NCBI GenBank assembly: GCA_017545865.1
Contig: JAFWXO010000003.1
Coordinates: forward strand, 42,751 to 106,750
Source: Clostridia bacterium
GTDB taxonomy: Bacteria; Bacillota; Clostridia; Christensenellales; Borkfalkiaceae
Reading direction: 5' to 3'
DNA: 64,000 nucleotides
Shown here one piece after another: positions 4,768-63,624 of the stretch (its first letter is position 1; each line of letters starts with the position of its first letter). Made by a program: the position numbers and the translations under genes. Under the pieces are notes generated by a model. It searched no databases and had not been told where the DNA came from. It worked only from the letters and a program-made list of their open reading frames with translations.

Positions 4768-4775
4768 AAAAATAT

Positions 4776-4905
4776 CCATAAAGAGTGCGTTAGGGACAGC
4801 CCCTTTGACCGCACAGCAACCTACCGTAAGGTAAGGTGCTAAAGGCTGAATGATGGGGAGATTTCTTTATAGTAATAAACCCATCTGTGATGGGTTTTTC
4901 TTTTT
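4776..4905 (+). promoter_or_regulatory. SAM riboswitch (SAM-I/IV clan) with terminator
   Basis: The core contains AGGGACAGCCCC, CAGCAACC, a short P3 hairpin, and AAGGTGCTAAAGGCTG, which are the conserved parts of SAM-I-type aptamers. P1 closes between ATAAAGA near 4778 and TCTTTAT (4863-4869). CAGCC in the P2 loop can pair with GGCTG for the pseudoknot. There is no P4 arm between the pseudoknot strand and P1, which fits the SAM-I/IV variant better than classic SAM-I. A terminator hairpin (AAACCCATC with GATGGGTTT, 4877-4897, then Ts) follows. GATGGG at 4852-4857 could compete for CCCATC and act as antiterminator. SAM binding should therefore turn the downstream gene off. Confidence 0.85.
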
Positions 4906-49661: not shown

Positions 49662-49690
49662 TTGACAAGCAAAAAAGTAGGGTGTATAAT
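49662..49690 (+). promoter_or_regulatory. Consensus promoter of T-box leader 1
   Basis: TTGACA (49662-49667), 17 bp, TATAAT (49685-49690). It overlaps the stop codon region of the AraC-type gene. Confidence 0.9.
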
Positions 49691-49696
49691 CGCCTT

Positions 49697-49968
49697 AATT
49701 TAATAGCCCACAAAGACTGTGACGAAGAAAGGCTAAACGGGAGTTTACAGAGAGTTGACGGGTGGTGTGAGTCAACAACGAGCGTTTAACAACCTATCCC
49801 TTCCGAGTCGAAAACCCGAAATAATAGTAGACGTTTTCCGTGATTTCTGCGTTAATGAATAGGAATTGTTAGATTCTAAAGTGGCAATCTTGTGATTGCA
49901 ATTTGAGTGGTACCGCGGTTTACAAAAGCCGTCTCAAAGAAATTGTTTCTTTGCGACGGCTTTTTTAG
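49697..49968 (+). promoter_or_regulatory. T-box riboswitch 1 upstream of first HTH-cupin-acyl-CoA ligase
   Basis: All T-box parts are visible: the GA/kink-turn of stem I (GTGACGAAG with CTTCCGAG), the distal loops (ACAGAGA and GGTGGTGTGAG), the 14-nt T-box TGAGTGGTACCGCGG (49904-49918) that binds the tRNA CCA end, and a terminator (49924-49967, GCCGTC/GACGGC then Ts). In the specifier strand (49791-49800) the codon placed next to the lower stem is AUC (49796-49798, Ile). The reading two bases earlier would be CUA (Leu). An uncharged branched-chain tRNA should open expression. Confidence 0.9.
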
Positions 49969-49982
49969 TTCTTATAAACGGC

Positions 49983-50232
49983 GCAATACTGCGTTTCTGC
50001 TTTGACTTTGGACTTCAATGACCAAAAAGGTCTATTTCACCCCAAAGTCTTCGCGAGCCTTGTCTTGCTTGTTTCTAAAAACTAAAACGAGTAGATATTA
50101 TAAATTTCGCAATACTGCGTTTACTGCCAAGCCGTTCAATTACGACAACCAACAAGGTTGGTCGTAATCGCTCCGTCTTGCCGAGCCTTGTCTTGCTTGT
50201 TTCTAAAAACTAAAACGAGTAGATTTTATAAA
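49983..50232 (+). repeat. Two tandem ~126-bp structured repeats (family R, copies 1 and 2)
   Basis: Both begin GCAATACTGCGTTT (49983 and 50109) and end with the same 40-base tail starting GAGCCTTGTCTTGCTTG (50055 and 50183). The middle parts differ in sequence but each folds. Copy 1: GACTTTGG/CCAAAGTC enclosing GACC/GGTC. Copy 2: a longer stem around ACC-aacaa-GGT. They lie in the leader between the T-box terminator and the gene. No ORF is evident here. Confidence 0.8.
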
Positions 50233-50315
50233 GGAACAAACCCACAAAAACTTGTCTATAAGGCGATTGATCGCTTATAATATCAATTTTAAAATTTTTT
50301 AAGGAGGTAGCAACC

Positions 50316-52583
50316 ATGAACACCAACAACACTTTAAATCAGTTATCGGAGATCGCAACGAGAATTAAGGAGTTGCGTGAAATTATGGGCTTTTCCGTAT
50401 ATTCGATGGCTGAAAAAACCGACGTTACGTCAGACACTTATACGCTATACGAGAGCGGAAAAGTAGATATTCCTTTCTCTTTTATACATAAATGCGCTTT
50501 GGCGTTCGGCGTTGAAATGACCGAACTTTTAGAAGGTAAAACGGCAAAACTTTCCTCTTATACCGTAACTAGAAAAGGTCAAGGTCAAGAAACCGCCAAA
50601 GAAGACGGCATCAATATAGCAAACCTTGCTCCCAAGTTCAAAAATAAACTTGCCGAGCCTTACTACGTTAAGTACGAATATTCCGCTTCTCAACAAAACA
50701 AGCCTATCCACTTAACCACTCACTCAGGCCAAGAATTCGACCTTATTTTAAGTGGTAAACTCAAAGTTCAAGTAGGTGATCACGTTGAAGTTTTAAGTGA
50801 GGGCGACAGTATCTATTACAATTCTTCCACCCCTCACGGCATGATAGCCGTTGACGGTCAAGACTGCGTGTTCTGCGCGGTGGTAATGTCGGGCGACGAT
50901 ACCGAAGAAACGGTAGTTAGAAAGTCCGTTATGGCGGCTAAAAAGAGTGAAAGTTTGGTTTGCGAAAAGTTCGTTGACGCCGTTGAAGACGAACAAGGTA
51001 GACTTTTGTCAATCAACTTTAAAAACACCGAAACTTTCAACTTTGGCTTTGACGTCGTTGATGAAATCGCTAGAAAATACCCCGATAAACTTGCGATGCT
51101 TCACCTTGATAAAAATAAATTTGAACGTCGCTTTACCTTTAAGGATATAAAAACGGAATCTAACCGCGTTGCAAACTACTTCACGTCCTTAGGTATCAAG
51201 CGTGGCGACAAGGTTATGCTCGTTTTAAAACGCCACTATCAATTCTGGTTTGCAATGGTAGCCCTTCACAAACTCGGCGCGGTTGCAATTCCAGCGACTA
51301 ATCAACTTAAAGAACACGACTTTGAATATAGATATAACTCCGCAGGAGTTAAAGCAATCGTATGTACTGCCGACGGCGATACTTACCAGTTTGCCGAATC
51401 CGCTGCAAAAAAATGCCCTCAAGTAGAAAATCTCGTTATGGTTGGCGGTTGTAAAGAAGGTTGGAGAGATTTCGATAAAGAATACGCTTTATTCTCCGGC
51501 AAGTTTGAACGCGCGGAAGATAATTCCGCTGGTGACGATACCGCTCTTATGTTCTTCACTAGTGGAACGACTGGCAATCCCAAAATGGCAGCGCACAAGC
51601 ATACTTACGCATTAGGTCATTACGTAACCGCAAAATACTGGCACTGTTGCGAGCGTGACGGTTTGCACCTTACCATTTCCGACACGGGTTGGGGCAAATC
51701 GCTTTGGGGTAAACTTTACGGTCAATGGCTTTGCGAAGGCGCGGTATTCGTTTACGACTTTGATAAGTTTGACGAAAACGACATACTCCCGATGTTCGCA
51801 AAATACAACATCACAACTTTCTGCGCTCCACCGACTATGCTCCGTATGCTTATCCGTGGCGACCTTTCTAAATTCGACCTTTCGTCTATCCATCACATGA
51901 CGACTGCTGGCGAAGCGCTCAATCCCGAAGTGTTCACTCAATTCAAAGCCGCAACGGGCTTAGAAATAATGGAAGGCTTCGGTCAAACTGAAACGACCCT
52001 TGCAATAGCAAACCTTTACGGAACTACTCCTAAGGTTGGCGCTATGGGTAAAGCCTCTCCGCAATTCGACGTTGATATCGTTGACCCCGATGGAAAATCC
52101 CTTCCCGCTGGCGAAGTCGGCGAAATCGTTATCCATACCGACAAAAAAGCTCCCTGTGGTCTTTTCAAAGAATATTATCGTGACGAAGAAAAAACTCTCG
52201 AAGCTTGGCACGACGGAGTTTACCACACTGGTGACACCGCTTGGCGTGACGAAGACGGATATTTCTGGTACGTTGGCCGTGTTGACGACGTTATCAAGTC
52301 TTCTGGCTATCGTATCGGACCTTTTGAAATTGAGTCCGTTATCATGGAACTTCCCTACGTTTTAGAGTGTGGCGTTTCCGCCGTTCCCGACGAAGTTCGC
52401 GGTCAAGTCGTAAAGGCAAGTATCGTTTTAACCAAGGGTACAGTTCCTTCTGAAGAATTAAAGAAAGAAATTCAAAAATACGTAAAAGACCACACCGCTC
52501 CTTACAAGTATCCCAGAGTAGTAGTCTTCCGTGATGAACTTCCCAAGACTATAAGCGGTAAAATCCAAAGAAACAAGTTATAA
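50316..52583 (+). CDS. HTH-cupin-acyl-CoA ligase fusion, copy 1
   Basis: A 755-aa three-part protein. Residues 12-74 are an XRE-type HTH (SVYSMAEKTDVTSDTYTLYE). About 115-192 are a cupin (HSGQEFDLILSGKLKVQVGD, then STPHG). 235-755 are an AMP-forming acyl-CoA synthetase of the acetyl/medium-chain type. The ligase motifs are FFTSGTTGNPKMA (413-425), EGFGQTETT, YHTGDTAW and the catalytic Lys749 in TISGKIQRNK. It should activate a short or branched carboxylate with ATP and CoA. HTH-cupin is a usual repressor layout, so the enzyme may also sense and regulate, which is unproven. It is controlled by T-box 1, and AAGGAGG precedes the ATG. The paralog is at 55160. Pathway partners (VOR and aminotransferase) are downstream. 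Confidence 0.9.
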   Translation: MNTNNTLNQLSEIATRIKELREIMGFSVYSMAEKTDVTSDTYTLYESGKVDIPFSFIHKCALAFGVEMTELLEGKTAKLSSYTVTRKGQGQETAKEDGINIANLAPKFKNKLAEPYYVKYEYSASQQNKPIHLTTHSGQEFDLILSGKLKVQVGDHVEVLSEGDSIYYNSSTPHGMIAVDGQDCVFCAVVMSGDDTEETVVRKSVMAAKKSESLVCEKFVDAVEDEQGRLLSINFKNTETFNFGFDVVDEIARKYPDKLAMLHLDKNKFERRFTFKDIKTESNRVANYFTSLGIKRGDKVMLVLKRHYQFWFAMVALHKLGAVAIPATNQLKEHDFEYRYNSAGVKAIVCTADGDTYQFAESAAKKCPQVENLVMVGGCKEGWRDFDKEYALFSGKFERAEDNSAGDDTALMFFTSGTTGNPKMAAHKHTYALGHYVTAKYWHCCERDGLHLTISDTGWGKSLWGKLYGQWLCEGAVFVYDFDKFDENDILPMFAKYNITTFCAPPTMLRMLIRGDLSKFDLSSIHHMTTAGEALNPEVFTQFKAATGLEIMEGFGQTETTLAIANLYGTTPKVGAMGKASPQFDVDIVDPDGKSLPAGEVGEIVIHTDKKAPCGLFKEYYRDEEKTLEAWHDGVYHTGDTAWRDEDGYFWYVGRVDDVIKSSGYRIGPFEIESVIMELPYVLECGVSAVPDEVRGQVVKASIVLTKGTVPSEELKKEIQKYVKDHTAPYKYPRVVVFRDELPKTISGKIQRNKL

Positions 52584-52633
52584 AGCAAAAAAATAGAAAT
52601 TTGCTTGCAAGGATAGATATTTTTTTGCTTTGC

Positions 52634-52711
52634 AAACTTAAAGGTAAAACCGTTGGTTTTACGGCAAAACGCAGTTTTGTATTTTGTTAACAACAAAATT
52701 TCTTTAAGTTT
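52634..52711. other. 78-nt cloverleaf-like structure with perfect stems
   Basis: The outer stem AAACTTAAAG/CTTTAAGTTT (52634-52643 with 52702-52711) encloses three hairpins in a row: 8 bp (52644-52662, loop GTT), 6 bp (52665-52679, loop GCA) and 8 bp (52681-52699, loop AAC). All pairs are perfect. It starts 51 bp after the first ligase gene. Part of the 322-bp gap 52584-52905. Confidence 0.65.
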
Positions 52712-52730
52712 ATAAGTCGCTATTTCGGGC

Positions 52731-52812
52731 ATTATACTTCGTTCTGCTCCGCTTTGCTTACTCGCGTACAATAAAGTACGTCTCCTATCGCAAATGCTCG
52801 CACGCCTTGTCT
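52731..52812 (+). repeat. Degenerate member of repeat family R (copy 3)
   Basis: ATTATACTTCGTTCTGC at the start and CGCACGCCTTGTCT at the end match the ends of copies 1 and 2. The middle holds the palindrome CGTACaataaaGTACG. The remaining bases to 52905 show only a short hairpin (GTCGT/ACGAC). Confidence 0.55.
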
Positions 52813-52905
52813 AATACCCAAACTAACGCCTTATTAAATCTTCGCTATGCGTCGTTTTTACGACTACAACAACTAAAATAACCTTAATAAATATCATTTC
52901 GCATT

Positions 52906-54336
52906 ATGAAAAAAACTTTTGTTACGAATATGCCTAACCATATAGGATCGTTCTTAAAGGCTAGCAAATGTTTTTCTAAACTCGGCGTAAATATAACCAG
53001 AGTAAGTTACAATAAAGCGGTTGATTCTCACACCTTGTTTATAGACGTTGACGGTGAGCAATCTCAACTTGAAAAAGCAACTGAAATGCTCAAAGAAATA
53101 GGTTATCTTTCAAACGAACAAGAAAACAGTAAAATCGTTTTGCTTGAATTTCGTTTGGAAGATCGCCCGGGTAGCGTAACCGACGTTTTGGAACTTATTT
53201 ATAAGTTCAGTCTTAATATTTCCTATATAAGTTCGCAAGAAAACGGGAGCGGTTATCAGTTTTTCAAAATGGGTTTATACGTCAACGACGACTGCGCCTT
53301 GAATGACTTTTTGGCGCAGGCTCAACAACTGTGTGAAGTAAAAATTATAAACTATAACAACGCCGAAAAAGTCTTTGACAACAGCCTATTTTATAACGCT
53401 TACGTAGACGGGCTTGTAAAGACTATGGCGCTTGACCGCCAAAAAAAAGAAGATTTGCTAGTCAACGTAAATCTTGCTATGCAAACGCTTGACGAAACGG
53501 GTTTATCTCCGTACAAAACGTTTGATAGCATTAACAAATTCGCCGAACTTTTAGCAGGGAGTAAAGGCGAAAACTTTAAACCAAGGATAACTAAACACGT
53601 TATTTCTAATAACACAACGATTACTTTAATAGAACCCGATTGCGGTAGCAACACGGCGATTATCGAAAGTTACGGTGAAAGAATTTTTATAGATTCGGGT
53701 TACGCGTGCTATAAAAACGAAATGCTTAAACTTTTTAAAAGTTTAGTTCCCGATTTTAAAAATGAAACGATACTTTTAACCCATGCGGACGTTGACCACG
53801 CAGGCTTACTCGGTGAGTTTAGTAAAGTTATAGCAAGCCAAAGAACGGCTGAGTGCTTGTTTGCCGAAAAAGACGGTTTGCTCGGTTTTAGAGAAAGCAA
53901 TCTCTTGCATAAACCCTATATCAACATTTGCAAAATTTTAACTGAATACAAAGCGGTTGAAAAGGATAAAGTTTGCCCTGCTTGGAGTAAATCAAGTTTA
54001 AGTTCTCCACTTGAGCGAATAGGTGATTTTACCGTTGGCGAGTTAACCTTTGAAGTGTACGAAGGTAAGGGCGGTCATCTTGCAGGCGAGATAATTTTAA
54101 TTGATAAAAAACACAAAATCGCCTTTACGGGTGACGTTTTTATTAACGTTCACGGCCTTACTGAAACACAAGCAAACTACAATAAATACGCGCCTATCTT
54201 AATGACGTCGGTCGATACCGACAAAGATCTTTGCGCCTTAGAACGCTCTGAGTTTATTAAAAAATTAGACGGCGGAGTTTGGAGCATCTTCGGTGGGCAC
54301 GGCGGAAAGAAAGAGTATCTTTCTCAAAACGATTAG
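52906..54336 (+). CDS. ACT-domain metallo-beta-lactamase-fold protein
   Basis: A 476-aa protein. Residues about 1-75 and 80-150 are two ACT-like domains (FVTNMPNHIGSFLKASKCFSKLGVNI and LEFRLEDRPGSVTDVLELIYKFSLNI), the kind that bind amino acids. About 215-476 are a metallo-beta-lactamase fold with LLTHADVDHAG, GGHLAGEI, AFTGD and the closing FGGHGG, i.e. most zinc ligands of a hydrolase such as a thioesterase. The position between two T-box-controlled ligase genes suggests feedback by a branched-chain amino acid on hydrolysis of a CoA ester or similar (inference). No Shine-Dalgarno site is visible before the ATG. Confidence 0.8.
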   Translation: MKKTFVTNMPNHIGSFLKASKCFSKLGVNITRVSYNKAVDSHTLFIDVDGEQSQLEKATEMLKEIGYLSNEQENSKIVLLEFRLEDRPGSVTDVLELIYKFSLNISYISSQENGSGYQFFKMGLYVNDDCALNDFLAQAQQLCEVKIINYNNAEKVFDNSLFYNAYVDGLVKTMALDRQKKEDLLVNVNLAMQTLDETGLSPYKTFDSINKFAELLAGSKGENFKPRITKHVISNNTTITLIEPDCGSNTAIIESYGERIFIDSGYACYKNEMLKLFKSLVPDFKNETILLTHADVDHAGLLGEFSKVIASQRTAECLFAEKDGLLGFRESNLLHKPYINICKILTEYKAVEKDKVCPAWSKSSLSSPLERIGDFTVGELTFEVYEGKGGHLAGEIILIDKKHKIAFTGDVFINVHGLTETQANYNKYAPILMTSVDTDKDLCALERSEFIKKLDGGVWSIFGGHGGKKEYLSQND

Positions 54337-54343
54337 GAAAACT

Positions 54344-54790
54344 ATGTATTTTAACGAATTAAAAGTAGGCATGTCCGTAGATATAGAGCCTGCTGTGATT
54401 GAAAAACAAAAAATGCTGGACTTTGCAAGGGAGTACGATAATATTCCCCTTCACACCGATGAAAACTACGCAAAAAATACGCCGTTTGGAAAGTTGATTG
54501 CTCCGGGCGTAATGTCGTTTATGTCGGTTTGGGCAAAGTATTTAGAAGTGGATTTTTTCGGGGAAGAACTCCTTGCAGGCAAGTCCACCAAAATAGAGTG
54601 GATAAAGCCCGTTTTTGCAGGCGATAAATTAACTTCGAAAGCAACGATAACCAAATTAACCCCCAGAAACGATAAAAACGGCTTGGTAGAAGTTACGATA
54701 GAGGCGTATAATCAAAACGGCGAACTAGTTTTAACTGACGTTACCGAAGCAATCGTAAAAATAGACAAAAACGCTAAAAAAGACGGTTAA
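54344..54790 (+). CDS. MaoC-like hot-dog dehydratase/thioesterase
   Basis: A 148-aa single hot-dog protein. The ATG at 54344 is chosen, behind AGGAAA, 7 bp after the preceding stop. FAREYDNIPLHTDENYAKNTPFGKLIAPG is the MaoC signature (Asp/His hydratase residues and the (F)G..(I)APG turn). MaoC proteins hydrate enoyl-CoA or act as related CoA-ester enzymes. It is in one unit with the ACT-MBL gene and precedes T-box 2. A role in the branched-chain acyl-CoA pool fits the context, but the substrate is unknown. Confidence 0.85.
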   Translation: MYFNELKVGMSVDIEPAVIEKQKMLDFAREYDNIPLHTDENYAKNTPFGKLIAPGVMSFMSVWAKYLEVDFFGEELLAGKSTKIEWIKPVFAGDKLTSKATITKLTPRNDKNGLVEVTIEAYNQNGELVLTDVTEAIVKIDKNAKKDG

Positions 54791-54825
54791 TCGAGATAAA
54801 ATTTCGTTTTTGGCGATAAAAATCG

Positions 54826-54854
54826 TTGACAAGATTAAAAACAAGTGGTAAATT
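54826..54854 (+). promoter_or_regulatory. Promoter of T-box leader 2
   Basis: TTGACA (54826-54831), 17 bp, TAAATT (54849-54854). Confidence 0.75.
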
Positions 54855-54860
54855 TAATAT

Positions 54861-55128
54861 AATTAAATTAAAGGCTATGACGAAAAGTCCTTGTGTTTAA
54901 TTCGTTTACAGAGAACGGCGTTTGGTGCGAGCCGTAACGAGTGGATATTAGGTTGTAGTTTCCGAGCCGAGAAGAAGAAAGCCCAAAAGCGAGTAGAACT
55001 TCTCCGTGATTTCTGCGTTAATGAATAGGAATTGTTAGATTCTAAAGTGGCAGTCGTTTGACTGCAAATTGAGTGGTACCGCGGGATAAAACTCGTCTCA
55101 AAGCATTTTAGTTGAGACGGGTTTTTTG
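54861..55128 (+). promoter_or_regulatory. T-box riboswitch 2 upstream of second HTH-cupin-acyl-CoA ligase
   Basis: Same layout as T-box 1: kink-turn (ATGACGAAA with TTTCCGAG), ACAGAGA and TTTGGTGCGAG loops, T-box TGAGTGGTACCGCGG (55070-55084), and a terminator (GTCTCAA/TTGAGAC then Ts). A stretch of about 49 bases before the antiterminator is identical to T-box 1. The specifier codon in the same register as AUC of leader 1 is GUA (54955-54957, Val), followed by the expected purine. The alternative register gives UUG (Leu). Confidence 0.9.
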
Positions 55129-55159
55129 TTTAATTCGTCTCGTAATTACGGAGAGAAAA

Positions 55160-57442
55160 ATGGAACAACTTACTATCAAGATTCAAGAAATTGCAAACAG
55201 AATTAAAGAACTTCGCTTAATTGAAAACTTGTCAACTATTGAAATGGCAGCCTTGACGGGTGTTAGCGAAGAAGAATATTTAAACTGTGAGAACGGCAAA
55301 AGCGATTTAAACTTCGCTTTCATTTACCGTTGCGCAAACGCTTTAAAAGTTGACGTTACCGATATTATCGAAGGTTACAGCCCCAAACTTAAAGCGTTCA
55401 CCGTAACGAGAGCAGGCAACGGTCAAAACGTTGGTAACGCTCACGGTATGACTTACTATAACTTGGCAAGTTCGTTTAGATCAAGAATTGCCGAGCCTTT
55501 GTACGTCGTTAGCAAATATTCCGCTGACGAACAAGACAAGCCCTTAGAACTCACCACGCACGACGGGCAAGAGTGTGACATTATCGTTGACGGTAATTTA
55601 TTAGTTCAAGTTGGCAATCACAAAGTAGTTTTAAATCCCGGTGACAGTATTTATTACAATTCCGAAGCCCCCCACGGTTTAAGGGCGGTTGGCGGAAAAG
55701 ACTGTACCTTCTACGCAATCGTATTAAACCCCACCGGCGAGCCTATTCCAGAACTAAAAGAAAGCAAGATTATCGAGAGCAAGTCCAAACTTATCGACGA
55801 TGGTAAGAAACCGAGAATTTACAAAAATTACGTTGACGTTATTCGCAACGAAAACGGCACACCCACCAAAATCACCTTTAAAAATCACGAAAAGTTCAAC
55901 TTCGCCTTTGACGTTATGGACAAGATTGCCGAAAAAGACCCCGACAAACTTGCTATGCTCCATATCTCGAAAGACAAGACTGAACGTCGTTTCACTTTCA
56001 AAGATATCAAAAAGGAATCTAACCGCGCGGCAAACTACTTTAAGTCGCTCGGTATCAAAAAGGGCGATAGAGTTTTACTCGTTTTAAAACGCCACTATCA
56101 ATACTGGTTTTCAATGCTTGCGCTCAACAAACTTGGCGCGATAGGTATTCCCGCAACCAACCAACTTCAACCGCACGATTTTGAATATCGTTTCAATGCG
56201 GCGGGCGTTTCGGCGGTTATCTCCACTATGGATGATGAAATTCCAACTCGTATTGAACAAACCCTTTCCGCTTGCCCGAGCGTTACCACCAAGATTATAG
56301 TTAACGGCTCGCGTGAAGGCTGGCATAGTTTTGACGAAGAGTATAAACTTTTCTCCACCCACTTTGAAAGAACTGAAGACACCGCTTGCGGTGAAGACTT
56401 AATGCTTATGTTCTTCACTTCTGGAACGACGGGTTATCCCAAAATCGCATCTCACTCGCACACTTATCCGCTCGGTCATTTCCACACGGCAAAATACTGG
56501 CATAACGTTGACCCGAACGGTCTTCATTTCACCATTTCCGATACAGGTTGGGCAAAGGCGATGTGGGGTAAACTTTACGGTCAATGGCTTTGCGAAGCGG
56601 CTATCTTCGTTTACGATTTCGACCGCTTTGACGCTAGCGAAATTTTACCGATGTTTGCAAAACATCAAATCACTACCTTCTGCGCTCCGCCAACCATGCT
56701 CCGCATGCTCATAAAGGAAGATATCTCTAAATACGATTTATCGTCCGTTAAGCACATGACGACTGCAGGTGAAGCGTTAAACCCCGAAGTTTACCGTCAG
56801 TTTGAAAAGATAACTGGTCTTCAAATCATGGAAGGTTTCGGTCAAACGGAAAGCACTATGATTATCGGTAACATGACGGGCGCTCCGCACAAAATCGGCT
56901 CAATGGGTAAACCCGCGCCTATTTACGACGTTGATATCGTTGATGCAGACGGTAGGTCCGTAGAAGTTGGTGAAACGGGCGAAATAGTAGTTAGGGTAGC
57001 GGACGGCGCTCCTTGTGGCTTATTCAAAGGCTATTATCGTGACGAAGAAAAAACGCGTGAAGTTTGGCACGACGGTTACTATCATACGGGCGATACCGCT
57101 TGGCGCGATGAAGACGGTTTCTTCTGGTACGTCGGTCGTGTTGACGACGTTATCAAATCTAGTGGCTATCGTATCGGACCTTTTGAAATTGAGTCCGTTA
57201 TTATGGAACTTCCTTACGTTTTAGAGTGCGGTGTTTCCGCAGAACCCGATGAAGTTCGCGGTCAAGTAGTAAAAGCAAGTATCGTCTTAACTAAAGGCAC
57301 TGTTCCTTCCGAAGAATTAAAGAAAGAAATTCAAAAATACGTTAAGGATCACACCGCTCCCTATAAGTACCCAAGAATCGTAGTATTCCGTGATGAACTT
57401 CCCAAGACCATAAGCGGTAAAATCCAAAGAAACAAGTTATAA
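55160..57442 (+). CDS. HTH-cupin-acyl-CoA ligase fusion, copy 2
   Basis: A 760-aa paralog of the protein at 50316. The start ATG at 55160 (MEQLTIKIQ) follows GGAGAG and the T-box terminator. The order is the same: XRE HTH (about 15-75), cupin (about 118-195, DGQECDIIVDGNLLVQVGN and EAPHG) and AMP-forming ligase with FFTSGTTGYPKIA, EGFGQTEST, YHTGDTAW and SGKIQRNKL. Overall identity to copy 1 looks near 65%, but the last 120 residues are almost identical, a sign of gene conversion. Sequence differences in the middle suggest a different acid substrate. The downstream genes are the 2-oxoacid oxidoreductase operon. Confidence 0.9.
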   Translation: MEQLTIKIQEIANRIKELRLIENLSTIEMAALTGVSEEEYLNCENGKSDLNFAFIYRCANALKVDVTDIIEGYSPKLKAFTVTRAGNGQNVGNAHGMTYYNLASSFRSRIAEPLYVVSKYSADEQDKPLELTTHDGQECDIIVDGNLLVQVGNHKVVLNPGDSIYYNSEAPHGLRAVGGKDCTFYAIVLNPTGEPIPELKESKIIESKSKLIDDGKKPRIYKNYVDVIRNENGTPTKITFKNHEKFNFAFDVMDKIAEKDPDKLAMLHISKDKTERRFTFKDIKKESNRAANYFKSLGIKKGDRVLLVLKRHYQYWFSMLALNKLGAIGIPATNQLQPHDFEYRFNAAGVSAVISTMDDEIPTRIEQTLSACPSVTTKIIVNGSREGWHSFDEEYKLFSTHFERTEDTACGEDLMLMFFTSGTTGYPKIASHSHTYPLGHFHTAKYWHNVDPNGLHFTISDTGWAKAMWGKLYGQWLCEAAIFVYDFDRFDASEILPMFAKHQITTFCAPPTMLRMLIKEDISKYDLSSVKHMTTAGEALNPEVYRQFEKITGLQIMEGFGQTESTMIIGNMTGAPHKIGSMGKPAPIYDVDIVDADGRSVEVGETGEIVVRVADGAPCGLFKGYYRDEEKTREVWHDGYYHTGDTAWRDEDGFFWYVGRVDDVIKSSGYRIGPFEIESVIMELPYVLECGVSAEPDEVRGQVVKASIVLTKGTVPSEELKKEIQKYVKDHTAPYKYPRIVVFRDELPKTISGKIQRNKL

Positions 57443-57443
57443 A

Positions 57444-57540
57444 CTTCGTTATACTTTGTTACTGCGACTTTTTAACACTTCGTTGACCAGCAAGGTCTAA
57501 CTCAGCGTTAAAAAATCTTGTGCCTCGTCTAACTCGTTTC
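57444..57540 (+). repeat. Repeat family R, copy 4
   Basis: Starts CTTCGTTATACTTTGTTACTGCG. The inner hairpin GACC/GGTC (57485-57497) matches copy 1, but the enclosing stem is TTTTTAAC/GTTAAAAA (57469-57476, 57507-57514) where copy 1 has GACTTTGG/CCAAAGTC. Pairing is kept while the sequence differs. The tail GTGCCTCGTCTAACTCGTTTC corresponds to the family tail. Confidence 0.65.
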
Positions 57541-57641
57541 TAACTCGTTTCTTACAGAAACAAGTTGTTAGGAAAATCGTCCAAACATATAAGAAAAACA
57601 ATCATTAACTTAAATTATCTAGTGTGTTATTTTAAAATAAA

Positions 57642-58304
57642 ATGAAAGATTTAAAGAGAATAACGATTATATCGGGGCATTACGGTAGCGGTAAAACTAA
57701 TATCGCCGTCAATCTTGCAATAGATATTAAAAAGTCCTTTGACAAGGTGGCGGTTGCCGATCTTGATATAGTCAATCCCTATTTTAGAACGAAAGATAGT
57801 ATTTCCGATTTTGAAAAGAACGGGATACGCTTAATCTCGTCTGAATACGCGGGCTCTAACGTCGATATCCCCGCGCTCCCGCAAGATATGTACGCCATAA
57901 CGGACGATAAAAGTTATAAAATGATAGTCGACCTTGGCGGTGACGATAGGGGGGCTTTGGCGCTTGGGCGTTTAACTCCCGAAATTATAGCCGAAAACAA
58001 TTACGAAATGCTACTCGTAGTCAACAAATTCCGCCCGCTCACTCCCGACCTTGAAACGACAGTTCAAGTGGCAAGGGAAATCGAAACGGCGGGTAAAATC
58101 AAGTTTACTGGCGTTATCAACAATTCAAATCTCGGCGAGTTTACTACTGAAAGTGACGTTTTAGATTCCCTTTCATACGCTAATGAAATTGCAAACTGTA
58201 TGGGAATACCCGTCAAGTTCACGTCGGTTAAAGCCGATTTATATGAAAAACTTAAAAACAAGATAGAAAATTTGTACCCGCTTGTTTTACAAGCGAAGAT
58301 ATAA
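57642..58304 (+). CDS. MinD/ParA-like P-loop ATPase in the oxidoreductase operon
   Basis: A 220-aa P-loop NTPase with Walker A in ISGHYGSGKTNIAVNLA, VADLDIVNPYFRT after it, and VDLGGDDRGALALGRL in place of Walker B. Relatives (CobQ/MinD-like) often stand next to 2-oxoacid oxidoreductase genes in Clostridia. They may help insert or repair iron-sulfur clusters. No clear ribosome site precedes the ATG. It is 12 bp before the ferredoxin subunit gene and therefore co-transcribed. Confidence 0.82.
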   Translation: MKDLKRITIISGHYGSGKTNIAVNLAIDIKKSFDKVAVADLDIVNPYFRTKDSISDFEKNGIRLISSEYAGSNVDIPALPQDMYAITDDKSYKMIVDLGGDDRGALALGRLTPEIIAENNYEMLLVVNKFRPLTPDLETTVQVAREIETAGKIKFTGVINNSNLGEFTTESDVLDSLSYANEIANCMGIPVKFTSVKADLYEKLKNKIENLYPLVLQAKI

Positions 58305-58316
58305 AGGAGAAACATT

Positions 58317-58523
58317 ATGGCAAAACTTACAATCAACGTTGATAACTGCAAAGGCTGTGGTCTTTGCGTTGACGTTTGTCCCAAAAAAGTTTTGGAACTT
58401 TCGCCAAATAAAATCAATAAAAAGGGCCACAAGCCCGTTGAAGCGGTTAGGGAAGCAGACTGTATCGGTTGCGCGTTCTGCGCTACTATGTGCCCCGACT
58501 GCATCATTAAAGTAGAGAGATAA
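58317..58523 (+). CDS. 2-oxoacid:ferredoxin oxidoreductase, delta (ferredoxin) subunit
   Basis: A 68-aa protein with two [4Fe-4S] motifs (CKGCGLCVDVCP and CIGCAFCATMCP). It is the electron-carrying subunit of four-subunit VOR/KOR enzymes and passes electrons between the thiamine site and ferredoxin. AAAGGAG precedes it, and the alpha gene follows after 11 bp. Confidence 0.93.
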   Translation: MAKLTINVDNCKGCGLCVDVCPKKVLELSPNKINKKGHKPVEAVREADCIGCAFCATMCPDCIIKVER

Positions 58524-58534
58524 GGGGTGAAGTT

Positions 58535-59593
58535 ATGGCAAACAAAGTTTTAATGAAAGGTAACGAAGCAATCGCCGAAGCGGCAATCAAAGCAGGTTGC
58601 ATGCACTATTTCGGCTATCCTATCACTCCGCAAACGGAAATCGCTGCGTATATGGCAAAGCGTATGCCTAAAATCGGCGGTACTTTCTTACAAGCGGAAA
58701 GCGAAATTGCCGCTATCAATATGGTTTACGGCGTGTCCGCCGCTGGTTATAGAGTAATGACCAGTTCTTCAAGCCCGGGAATTTCCTTAAAGAGCGAAGG
58801 CATTTCTTACTTAGCCGGCGCTGACCTTCCCGCCGTTATTATTAACGTTCAACGCGGTGGCCCTGGTCTTGGCGGTATTCAACCTAGTCAATCGGACTAT
58901 TTCCAAGCAACTAAGGGTGGCGGTCACGGTGACTTCCATTTGATAGTTTTAGCGCCTGGTAACGTTCAAGAAATGGCGTCTTTAACGGTAAAGGCTTTCG
59001 AACTTGCCGATAAGTATAGAATGCCCGCTATGATTCTTGCCGACGGTACTATGGGTCAAATGATGGAACCCGTTGAATTTGATTTTGACGTTACTCCCGC
59101 GCCCGAAAAGCCTTGGGCAACTAACGGCACTAAAATGCAAAGAAAGCACAACATCGTTAACTCTTTATCGCTCGTTCCCGAAGAACTTGAAAAGTTCAAC
59201 TTTGAAAGATTTGAAAGATACGCTCAAGTTGAAGAAAACGAAGTTATGTACGACGAGTATTTGTGTGACGACGCTGAAATTTTAGTAACCGCTTACGGCA
59301 TCGCGTCAAGAGTTACCAAAAACGCCGTTGACGAAGCGAGAAAGAAAGGCATAAAAGTTGGTCTTATCCGTCCTATAACGGTATGGCCGTTCCCCAAAAA
59401 GCCGTTTGCTAAAATGGCTGAGAAAGTTAAACACGTTATCTGCGTTGAACTTTCAATGGGTCAAATGATTGAAGACGTTAAACTTGCGGTTGAGTGCAAA
59501 GTACCCGTTACTTTATGCAACCGTTCAGGCGGTATGATTCCGTCAACCGAGCAAATTCTTGCCGAAATTGAAAAATACGCAAAGGGGGAATAA
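58535..59593 (+). CDS. vorB: 2-oxoacid:ferredoxin oxidoreductase, alpha subunit (VorB type)
   Basis: A 352-aa subunit of the pyrimidine-binding (domain I and II) part: MKGNEAIAEAAIKAGCMHYFGYPITPQTE at the start, then SSSSPGISLKSEGISYLAGADLP and INVQRGGPGLGG. Such chains are commonly assigned to 3-methyl-2-oxobutanoate (valine-derived) oxidoreductase. The aminotransferase in the operon supports branched-chain 2-oxoacids, though 2-oxoglutarate enzymes are close relatives. The reaction is reversible with reduced ferredoxin, joining CO2 to an acyl-CoA. Confidence 0.9.
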   Translation: MANKVLMKGNEAIAEAAIKAGCMHYFGYPITPQTEIAAYMAKRMPKIGGTFLQAESEIAAINMVYGVSAAGYRVMTSSSSPGISLKSEGISYLAGADLPAVIINVQRGGPGLGGIQPSQSDYFQATKGGGHGDFHLIVLAPGNVQEMASLTVKAFELADKYRMPAMILADGTMGQMMEPVEFDFDVTPAPEKPWATNGTKMQRKHNIVNSLSLVPEELEKFNFERFERYAQVEENEVMYDEYLCDDAEILVTAYGIASRVTKNAVDEARKKGIKVGLIRPITVWPFPKKPFAKMAEKVKHVICVELSMGQMIEDVKLAVECKVPVTLCNRSGGMIPSTEQILAEIEKYAKGE

Positions 59594-59596
59594 AAA

Positions 59597-60349
59597 ATGG
59601 TAGTATTCGACAAACCTAAATCACTTGCAGATATATCAATGCACTATTGCCCCGGTTGTACCCACGGCATAGTTCACAGATTAGTTGCCGAAGTTATTGA
59701 CGAACTCGGCATTGAAGGCAGAACTATCGGTATCGCGCCCGTTGGTTGTTCCGTTATGGCTTACAACTACTTTAACTGCGATATGATTGAAGCCGCTCAC
59801 GGTAGAGCGCCTGCCGTTGCAACGGGCGTTAAAAGAGCAAATCCCGATGAGCATATCGTTTTCACTTACCAAGGCGACGGTGACTTAGCGTCTATCGGTA
59901 TGGCTGAAACAGTTCACTCTGCGGCTCGTAACGAAAATATAACTATTATCTTTATCAACAACGCAATTTACGGTATGACTGGCGGTCAAATGGCTCCCAC
60001 GTCCCTTCCTGGTCAAGTAACTCAAACTTCGCCTTACGGTAGAGACGTTAACGCTTGCGGTTTCCCCGTTAGAGTTTGCGAAATGCTCGCAACGCTTGAC
60101 GGTCCTGAATATTTAGAGCGCGTTACCGTAAACAGCGTAAAGGCTATCAAGAACGCTAAAAAGGCTATCAAGAAAGCCTTCCAAAACCAAATCGACAAAA
60201 AAGGTTTTTCACTCGTAGAAGTTTTATCTACTTGTCCTACCAACTGGGGTATGACTCCGAAGGACGCTTTAAAGTGGGTTGACGAAAAGATGATTCCGTA
60301 TTACCCCTTAGGCGTTTACAAAGATAGAAGCGCAAAGGAGGATAAGTAA
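59597..60349 (+). CDS. 2-oxoacid:ferredoxin oxidoreductase, beta (thiamine diphosphate) subunit
   Basis: A 250-aa subunit with the thiamine diphosphate motif [30 protein letters not shown] (Gly-Asp-Gly to Asn-Asn, Mg2+ and cofactor binding). [12 protein letters not shown] is near the N-terminus. It lies 3 bp after the alpha gene and 2 bp before the gamma gene. A slightly repetitive helix ([13 protein letters not shown]) precedes the C-terminus. It provides the carbanion chemistry in either direction. Confidence 0.93.
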
Positions 60350-60351
60350 TT

Positions 60352-60885
60352 ATGAAAACCACTAAGTATTTGTTCTCTGGCTTTGGCGGTCAAGGTATAC
60401 TTTTTTCTGGAAAGTTCTTGGCGTACAAGGGTTTAACTGAAGATAAGCAAGTAAGTTGGCTTCCTTCTTACGGCCCTGAAATGCGCGGTGGTACGGCAAG
60501 TTGCTCGGTAATTATTAGCGACGAACTTATCGGCTCACCCATCGTTGACAGTCCTGACGTTTTAGTTGCGATGAACCTTCCCTCGCTTGACAAGTTTGAA
60601 AAGACCGTTAAAGCGGGCGGTACTATCATTTTAGATAGCACGCTTATTGAAAGAAAAGTTGAAAGGACTGACGTTGAAGTTGTTTATCTTCCCGCAACCC
60701 GTTTAGCAAACGAAAACGGTTGCCCCACTTTAGCAAATATGATTATCGTTGGCAAACTTTTAAAAGTTGCCGGCGAATACGACGAAAAGTCGATTGAAGA
60801 AACCTTGAAAAAGGTAATTTCCGCTAAGCGCGCGGACATGCTTGAAGTTAACAAGAAAGCAATGCAAATCGGCGCTGAATTTTAA
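60352..60885 (+). CDS. 2-oxoacid:ferredoxin oxidoreductase, gamma subunit
   Basis: A 177-aa subunit with the family start [23 protein letters not shown], then [22 protein letters not shown] and [19 protein letters not shown]. It completes the four-subunit enzyme (delta, alpha, beta, gamma in gene order). The aminotransferase start follows after 18 bp. Confidence 0.93.
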
Positions 60886-60903
60886 TAGGGGAGAGTGAAA
60901 AAT

Positions 60904-61965
60904 ATGGAAATCAAAATAGTTAAAACCGCTAACAAGAAAGTTAAACCTGAAGATAGCGTTTTAGGTTTCGGTAAATATTTTACCGACCACATGGCTATGA
61001 TTACTTGGTCGGCAGAAAAAGGTTGGCACAACGCGAGAATCGTTCCGTTTGAAAACCTTTCTATCCACCCTGCAAGCACCGTTTTACATTACGGCGCTGA
61101 AATCTTCGAAGGCTTAAAGGCTTATAGAAGGGCAGACGGTAAAGTTCAAATGTTTAGACCTATGGAAAACGTTAAAAGACTTAACCGTTCGGCTGAAAGA
61201 CTTTGCCTTCCCACTATCGATGAGGATATCGCTTTTGAACTTCTCACCAAGTTCGTTGAAGTTGAACAAGAATGGACTCCATGCAGTAAGGGCACTTCCC
61301 TTTACTTAAGACCGTTCATGTTCGGTAACGACGAAGCGCTTGGCGTTCACGCCGTTCACAACGCTGAATTCGTTATTATCGCATCGCCCGTTGGCAGTTA
61401 CTATAAAGAAGGCATTAACCCCGTTAAGATTATGATTGAATCTGAAGACGTTAGAGCCGTTCGCGGTGGCACGGGTTACGCTAAGTGCGGTGGTAACTAC
61501 GCCGCTTCCACTCGCGCAGGAAAGCGCGCTGAAGACAAGGGCTACTCTCAAGTTTTATGGCTTGACGGTGTTGAAAGAAAGTATATCGAAGAAGTTGGCG
61601 CTATGAACGTTATGTTCAAGATTGACGGCAAGATTGTAACTCCCAAGCTTACAGGCTCAATTCTTCCTGGTATCACTCGTATGAGTTGTATTGAAGTTTT
61701 AAAGAGCAAGGGTTATGAGGTTGAAGAAAGGCTTTTATCCGTTGACGAGCTTATTGATGCCGTTAAAACTGGCAAACTTGAAGAAGCGTTCGGTTGCGGT
61801 ACTGCAGCGGTTGTATCTCCGATCGGAGAACTTATGTATGAAGATGTAAAATACCCCGTATCCGGCGGAAAAATCGGTGAAGTAACCCAAATGCTTTACG
61901 ACACTTTAACGGGTATTCAATGGGGCGTTCTTGACGACACGTTCGGTTGGACTTACAAAATCTAA
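60904..61965 (+). CDS. ilvE: Branched-chain amino acid aminotransferase
   Basis: A 353-aa fold-type IV PLP enzyme that exchanges the amino group between Leu/Ile/Val and 2-oxoglutarate. The ATG at 60904 is used (GGGGAG 10 nt before); a GTG at 60895 is less likely. Motifs: VLHYGAEIFEGLKAYR, YLRPFMFGNDEALGVH, GGTGYAKCGGNYAAS, the PLP lysine region VLWLDGVERKYIEEVGAMNVMF and the late EAFGCGTAAVVSPIG. It is the last gene of the operon. In the anabolic direction it aminates the 2-oxoacids made by the oxidoreductase. Confidence 0.95.
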   Translation: MEIKIVKTANKKVKPEDSVLGFGKYFTDHMAMITWSAEKGWHNARIVPFENLSIHPASTVLHYGAEIFEGLKAYRRADGKVQMFRPMENVKRLNRSAERLCLPTIDEDIAFELLTKFVEVEQEWTPCSKGTSLYLRPFMFGNDEALGVHAVHNAEFVIIASPVGSYYKEGINPVKIMIESEDVRAVRGGTGYAKCGGNYAASTRAGKRAEDKGYSQVLWLDGVERKYIEEVGAMNVMFKIDGKIVTPKLTGSILPGITRMSCIEVLKSKGYEVEERLLSVDELIDAVKTGKLEEAFGCGTAAVVSPIGELMYEDVKYPVSGGKIGEVTQMLYDTLTGIQWGVLDDTFGWTYKI

Positions 61966-63549: not shown

Positions 63550-63624
63550 GCTTCCATAGTTAAATGGATATAACAAGCCCCTCCTAAGGGCTAGTTGTGG
63601 GTTCGATTCCCGCTGGGAGTACCA
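63550..63624 (+). tRNA. tRNA-Arg (anticodon CCU)
   Basis: The cloverleaf is complete: acceptor GCTTCCA with TGGGAGT, D-arm AGTTAAATGGAT, anticodon arm AGCCC-CTCCTAA-GGGCT (anticodon CCU), T-arm GTGGGTTCGATTCCCGC, encoded CCA at 63622-63624. It reads AGG codons. A terminator follows directly. Its 3' end is the likely integration site of the element whose integrase begins to the right. Confidence 0.93.

Follow-up and report, generated by a model that had tools for sequence, protein, structure and literature searches.

A candidate T-box regulon for making isoleucine, valine and leucine from branched short-chain fatty acids in a Clostridia bacterium

Described systems and the 12-kb locus

Carboxylation of branched short-chain fatty acids to branched-chain amino acids (BCAAs) is classical rumen biochemistry: isovalerate is converted to leucine, isobutyrate to valine and 2-methylbutyrate to isoleucine (Allison, Robinson and Peel, 1962-1971; as cited in PMC7356843). 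The same article cites the conversion of phenylacetate to phenylalanine, also classical, and according to a reference title there, branched-chain volatile acids were growth factors of ruminococci by 1962. Here we describe a 12-kb run of genes, within a 64,000-nucleotide stretch of DNA from a Clostridia bacterium (the window; contig 29 of a 1.59-Mb assembly that is 95% complete), that would provide candidate, testable genes for this pathway known from the labelling work of the 1960s. The run holds two T-box leaders, two AMP-forming acyl-CoA ligases, a 2-oxoacid:ferredoxin oxidoreductase of the VOR type and a branched-chain aminotransferase. Very probably it is part of a regulon for BCAA biosynthesis from branched short-chain fatty acids, with one tRNA-switched ligase each for isoleucine, valine and leucine.

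The three conversions proposed here are those of the rumen pathway as it is cited; what differs is that they are assigned to genes, with a ligase per amino acid and a proposed control by tRNA sensing. The classical BCAA T-box regulons, as far as PMC2494555 and PMC3766115 set them out, likewise have Ile, Val and Leu specifiers upstream of BCAA genes, with leuA a known target, but the main text of neither survey contains 'ferredoxin' or 'oxidoreductase', and that of PMC2494555 does not contain 'acyl'. The described ligases most like those of the locus are the acyl-CoA synthetase MacsMa of Methanosarcina acetivorans (PDB entry 3ETC), for which PMC10455477 gives 2-methylbutyrate as the preferred acid, and MbcS of Staphylococcus aureus, which according to PMC10026030 takes 2-methylbutyrate and isobutyrate, takes isovalerate poorly, and feeds branched fatty acid synthesis. 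The initial annotation knew of no described T-box regulon of such composition. We likewise found none in the open-access literature, nor a named gene set for converting these acids to BCAAs; either may be in print elsewhere, and with that caution the gene set and the regulon appear to be new, the biochemistry being classical.

T-boxes turn genes on when the cognate tRNA is uncharged. In the scheme that we propose, 2-methylbutyrate, isobutyrate and isovalerate would be imported from gut fluid as precursors, and each uncharged tRNA would pair with its own T-box and let transcription run on into the gene of the ligase that takes the corresponding acid. The ligase behind the isoleucine T-box (LIG1) would form 2-methylbutyryl-CoA and that behind the valine T-box (LIG2) isobutyryl-CoA; a leucine T-box on another contig would control a LeuA-derived protein without catalytic motifs, together with a third ligase forming isovaleryl-CoA. 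A shared VOR, running in reverse with reduced ferredoxin and CO2, would turn the acyl-CoAs into 2-oxoacids, which a shared aminotransferase would convert to the amino acids. By this scheme, in which we infer the ligase substrates, the direction of flux and leucine sensing by the LeuA-like protein alike, the genes would be induced by starvation. If it is true, annotating such organisms as BCAA auxotrophs for lacking ilvCD would be wrong, the specifier codons would predict which ligase takes which acid, and the gene set could serve as a marker for uncultured gut bacteria that may rely on acids from others.

T-box leaders, ligases and shared enzymes

Computation established the T-boxes and specifiers, the gene families and their conservation, and the absence of matches to standard-pathway genes. 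Both leaders exceed the gathering score of 93 bits of the Rfam covariance model RF00230: T-box 1 (49710-49939; like all window features given here with coordinates along the locus, on the + strand) scores 104.7 bits (E 4.6e-22) and T-box 2 (54868-55103) scores 97.4 bits (E 3.6e-20). The specifier was taken from Stem I pairing as the codon one base 5' of the 3' strand of the lower Stem I helix. Both of our specifier scripts gave AUC (Ile, 49796-49798) for T-box 1 and GUA (Val, 54955-54957) for T-box 2, instead of the codons for unrelated amino acids that the initial annotation had named as the outcome to count against it. A predicted terminator hairpin with a U-run after it follows each T-box, at 49924-49964 (-22.9 kcal/mol, z -4.98; 0 of 200 shuffles as good) and at 55088-55125 (z -2.77; 2 of 200). 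The antiterminators, folded in isolation, stand out less from shuffled sequence (T-box 1, z -2.16, 9 of 200 shuffles; T-box 2, z -0.53, 50 of 200). By direct reading of the sequence, a promoter-like TTGACA-17-TATAAT pair lies upstream of T-box 1 at 49662-49690.

Related loci were collected in a single scan with LIG1, and the best 80 of 592 confirmed candidates were kept; by record title they come mostly from gut and rumen Clostridia, with two from Erysipelotrichaceae and one from Sphaerochaetaceae. The loci are related and some are duplicated between genomes, so that counts over them are not counts of independent events. Within the 80 loci, 65 ligase T-boxes read AUC, 38 GUA and 4 GUC, with 8 left without a call. 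Over the partly redundant loci L013-L135, a stricter script read 139 ligase T-boxes as 81 AUC, 46 GUA and 4 GUC; of the 8 without a call, which include those of L014 (truncated at the contig start) and L016 (variant motif), 6 are AUC by the first script. Five T-boxes were read by eye (L027 9873, AUC; L044 12535 and L129 10164, GUA; L072 5606 and L082 5566, CUG). The Ile T-box stands first and the Val T-box (GUA or GUC) second in all 37 loci with both script-read, and the order is reversed in 0.

This conservation across loci is stronger evidence for the specifiers than the control within the genome, which has 8 T-box matches, 6 of them over the cut-off; the stricter script makes no call for 3 of the 8. 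Among the five non-BCAA T-boxes of the genome, the script returned the expected UGG at a TrpB-like gene and UUC at pheS/pheT. Readings by eye of the other three (UGC at cysE/cysS, ACC at thrS, and UUC at a phenylacetate-CoA ligase (PaaK) operon) all fit, but because they were made knowing the expected answers the control is supportive and not blind.

LIG1 (50316-52583), the proposed 2-methylbutyryl-CoA ligase, and LIG2 (55160-57442), the proposed isobutyryl-CoA ligase, each consist of an N-terminal XRE helix-turn-helix (HTH) and cupin fused to an AMP-forming acyl-CoA ligase (Pfam). For both, 3ETC is by far the best solved match (630.8 bits, next 350.4, for LIG1; 636.9 bits, next 372, for LIG2), and MbcS (NF047394) is the best NCBIfam model (443.8 and 451.3 bits). 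In MacsMa, Trp259 is described as replacing the Trp that limits acetyl-CoA synthetase (PMC10455477); with MacsMa Gly459-Tyr460-Lys461 matched to the alignment (offset 23), this residue corresponds to LIG1 Trp464. Residue preferences were tabulated from 163 ligase open reading frames, reduced to 159 after 4 short ones and to 146 after 13 identical ones were dropped; of these, 20 whose specifier could not be read were excluded, and 6 without a strict call were set to AUC. Trp464 is kept in 126 of 126 ligases (79/79 Ile-switched, 47/47 Val-switched). Four positions ahead of it, near the acyl pocket, residue 460 is Gly in 78 of the 79 Ile-switched ligases and Ala in all 47 Val-switched ones, making it the most specifier-informative column of the ligase domain. 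A reasonable reading is that Ala460 would give a smaller pocket suited to a four-carbon acid.

The two ligases differ from MacsMa in their HTH and cupin domains and their position behind T-boxes, and LIG2 also in the Ala that replaces the Gly shared by MacsMa and LIG1. Like them, MbcS is an AMP-forming ligase for 2-methylbutyrate and isobutyrate, but as presented in PMC10026030 it serves fatty acid synthesis, and LIG1 and LIG2 score below the cut-off of its family and have extra domains. In 15 genomes the sole full-length ligase match listed has an internal stop (for example G029:C63:590-2788), and 6 of these 15 have ilvC; they may encode the HTH-cupin and the ligase as adjacent genes, a pair from which the fusion may have arisen.

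LIG2 is followed by a CbiA/ParA-type ATPase, VorD, VorA, VorB, VorC and the aminotransferase. VorA (58535-59593; 'VorB' in the NCBI name) reaches 554.7 bits against the 3-methyl-2-oxobutanoate family NF005507 (cut-off 399). VorD (58317-58523) is a ferredoxin-type subunit whose best matches, below cut-offs, are delta subunits of 2-oxoacid oxidoreductases; VorB (59597-60349) is the thiamine-pyrophosphate-binding subunit (Pfam TPP_enzyme_C) and VorC (60352-60885) the gamma subunit (Pfam POR). The aminotransferase (60895-61965) exceeds the cut-offs of NF009897 (477.3 bits, cut-off 307) and TIGR01123 (393.8 bits, cut-off 250.05). The two T-boxes, two acyl-CoA ligases, four-subunit VOR-type oxidoreductase and branched-chain aminotransferase of the initial annotation are all borne out; its gene list had omitted the HTH-cupin fusions, an ACT-metallo-beta-lactamase gene, a MaoC-like gene and the ATPase.

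Forty-seven of the 80 loci extend at least 8.5 kb downstream. VorDABC is present in 38 of these long loci, VorDABC with the aminotransferase in 34, and the entire set (second ligase, ATPase, VorDABC and aminotransferase) in 31; the arrangement of T-box, ligase, VOR and aminotransferase, whose conservation had been proposed as a check, is kept in many relatives. The ATPase (57642-58304), a P-loop NTPase with a Pfam CbiA match in 36 of 39 members, adjoins VorD in 38 of the 47. A sequence search of the PDB at E 0.01 found nothing matching it, and our guess is an Fe-S or cofactor maturation factor. The gene set also occurs in L055, the record labelled Sphaerochaetaceae, by transfer or through a binning error; there is no T-box at the Rfam threshold in that locus.

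The standard pathway and the leucine branch

At E 0.001, ilvB, ilvC and ilvD found no match in the genome itself, nor in any of the 8 genomes of its genus that were searched, and no separate leuB or leuC was seen in the genome, the absence of ilvBCD and leuABCD being what the initial annotation had suggested looking for. We compared the genome and 30 relatives, counting as fused a ligase of at least 57% identity with the HTH-cupin part covered. Such a ligase is present in 15 of the 31 genomes, including G008, whose two copies each hold a stop. ilvC, ilvD and ilvB were over cut-off in 0, 0 and 0 of these 15 versus 8, 9 and 9 of the other 16 (Fisher p 0.0024 for ilvC), and each of these searches gave a match in all 14 control genomes. 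A VOR of at least 69% identity accompanies the fused ligase in 14 of the 15 and occurs in 0 of the 16; matches of 56-62% only were found in four of the 16, with G029, and in G025, the remaining one of the 15.

Among the matches listed for 248 genomes of the order, ilvC occurs in 5 of 53 genomes with an unbroken fused ligase versus 70 of 195 without (p 9e-5), these being related genomes that are not independent. Here a ligase counted as fused if its listed match began no later than residue 25 and had no internal stop; the 15 genomes with only a stop-containing match lie outside the fused set in this count and inside it in a second (below), and G115, truncated at a contig end, was retained.

Leucine could in principle be made by leuABCD from VOR-made 2-oxoisovalerate. 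We set this route aside for this genome because the only aconitase and isocitrate-dehydrogenase-like genes found in it adjoin an HMGL-type gene (C4:101599-106580), a cluster consistent with an arm of the tricarboxylic acid cycle that could supply 2-oxoglutarate; PF00682 on its own is uninformative, being present in 31 of 31 genomes. The route may exist in G029 (ligase match 50%, one stop), which has LeuA-, LeuB- and LeuC-like matches and neither ilvD nor ilvC over cut-off, and a 309.5-bit Iso_dh match in G030, which has a fused ligase, might be LeuB.

The leucine branch lies elsewhere in the genome, on contig C27, where a third BCAA T-box (123.6 bits, specifier CUC) precedes genes for a 458-residue protein with HMGL-like and LeuA_dimer domains, an 839-residue TIM-barrel-ligase fusion and an amidohydrolase. 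The first protein shares with LeuA (2-isopropylmalate synthase) the HMGL-like barrel, the LeuA_dimer domain and a Leu T-box, but lacks the motifs RDGxQ, HxHN/D and GERxGN, which we take to be the catalytic motifs of LeuA. All three are missing from 31 of 31 distinct LeuA-like homologs and kept in 6 of 6 canonical LeuAs, and conservation is mainly C-terminal (28 of the 39 invariant columns of alignment A2 fall at residues 302-454). The LeuA-like gene is found in at least 29 of the 80 loci, at least 25 of which also have a relative of the ligase fusion, both lower bounds because the flanks are limited. Of the 15 genomes with a fused ligase 13 have it, and of the other 16 none. T-boxes were recognised at 17 of 34 copies, 13 CUC and 4 CUG; the stricter script read 18 LeuA-type T-boxes (14 CUC, 4 CUG), among them L116 (CUC), a canonical LeuA, and L122, the one of this genome.

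From this arrangement the LeuA-like protein may be a leucine sensor and the accompanying ligase an isovaleryl-CoA ligase, and the poor use of isovalerate reported for MbcS (PMC10026030) is in keeping with the leucine branch having a ligase from a different family. The 12-kb run had been proposed as one locus for valine, leucine and isoleucine. This stands for isoleucine and valine and for the shared VOR and aminotransferase; it does not stand for leucine, which has its own T-box and, probably, its own ligase elsewhere, and the run directly covers only the first two for that reason.

Competing explanations and neighbouring features

Several observations weigh against a biosynthetic regulon of this kind. 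On the enzyme side, LIG1 and LIG2 fall below the MbcS equivalog cut-off of 850, the ligase of the leucine branch is without a near solved relative, and VorB, VorC and VorD are under their cut-offs, some of them closer to 2-oxoglutarate enzymes. We expected clean LIG1 and LIG2 clades and had to reject them: no more than 30 of the 47 Val-switched sequences fall into a single Val-only clade, and no more than 53 of the 79 Ile-switched ones into a single Ile-only clade. Of those 79, L045 alone, although behind an Ile T-box, has at residue 460 the Ala typical of Val-switched ligases. On the regulatory side, the script matched the expected amino acid in just 2 of the 5 non-BCAA T-boxes of the genome, with no call at cysE/cysS, a wrong, low-scoring one at thrS and UCA at the PaaK operon, and 17 of the 34 LeuA-like copies are without a recognised T-box. 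VorA is missing downstream on the same strand in 9 of the 47 long loci, 2 of which have it on the opposite strand. Sub-cut-off ilvB-like matches occur in 3 of the 15 fused-ligase genomes (G028, 219.5 bits; G030, 179.6; G014, 20.4), and G028 has a 27-bit ilvC match under the cut-off. Besides the relatedness of the genomes, the exclusion of ilvC across the order is imperfect (4 of the 5 exceptions among the 53 are in one genus), and with stop-split ligase genomes added the comparison becomes 11 of 68 versus 64 of 180 (p 0.003).

A catabolic role, in which BCAAs are transaminated, oxidised by the VOR to acyl-CoA and carried by the ligases toward acid and ATP in a Stickland-like manner, is very unlikely. 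VOR and aminotransferase are reversible in principle, and the same enzyme types act in the catabolism of peptide-fermenting archaea. However, T-boxes switch on with uncharged tRNA and the ligase specifiers that could be read all stand for Ile or Val, AMP-forming ligases are ill-suited to ATP recovery, and the locus is found mainly where ilvC is missing. The specifiers, the preference of the ligases' closest solved relative for 2-methylbutyrate, the lack of ilvB, ilvC and ilvD matches and the conserved arrangement support the earlier proposal of a dedicated biosynthetic salvage pathway and not a fermentative one.

It is similarly improbable that the ligases supply branched acyl-CoA to membrane fatty acid synthesis and that the VOR genes encode a separate 2-oxoacid enzyme. 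The best NCBIfam match is to MbcS, which in PMC10026030 feeds branched fatty acid synthesis, and a MaoC-like gene lies nearby; against this, amino-acid-specific T-boxes stand upstream of the ligases, their linkage to VorDABC and the aminotransferase is conserved, and MaoC occurs in just 2 of 80 loci. Least probable is an oxidoreductase acting mainly as 2-oxoglutarate or pyruvate synthase, with the amino acid link a regulatory coincidence: VorB and VorD best match 2-oxoglutarate subunits, below cut-off, and the PDB entry that VorA matches best carries no name more specific than 2-keto acid enzyme, but VorA is over the cut-off of NF005507 and the C4 cluster, if its roles are as proposed, could supply 2-oxoglutarate.

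Within the biosynthetic reading, we tentatively suggest a more detailed version, to which we give somewhat less than an even chance. It would be a three-branch, tRNA-addressed salvage in which the ligase of each BCAA has sensing built in, the HTH-cupin part of LIG1 and LIG2, as regulator-enzyme fusions, binds DNA and a ligand, a catalytically dead LeuA restrains the isovaleryl-CoA ligase through its leucine-binding domain, Gly or Ala at residue 460 sets five- versus four-carbon acids, and the logic extends to phenylalanine.

T-box 1 is followed by LIG1, the ACT-metallo-beta-lactamase protein (52906-54336; Pfam) and the MaoC-like protein (54293-54790, exact start uncertain; Pfam), and 4 of the 80 loci have the gene for the ACT-metallo-beta-lactamase protein. 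The stretch separating T-box 1 from LIG1 contains direct repeats (49966-50232) of 58 nt (95%) and 31 nt (84%). Elsewhere in the window are an S-adenosylmethionine (SAM) riboswitch at 4773-4859 (54.5 bits) and a tRNA-Arg (CCT) at 63550-63624. Two further T-boxes of the genome may be noted: a Trp (UGG) T-box upstream of the TrpB-like gene at L125 (G000:C27:60000-66500), and one at L123 (G000:C12:43000-50500; 5907, - strand) upstream of a sodium:solute symporter, phenylacetate-CoA ligase and an ACT pair. The script reads the L123 T-box as UCA, by eye UUC (Phe) fits, and the operon is a possible phenylacetate-to-phenylalanine analogue.

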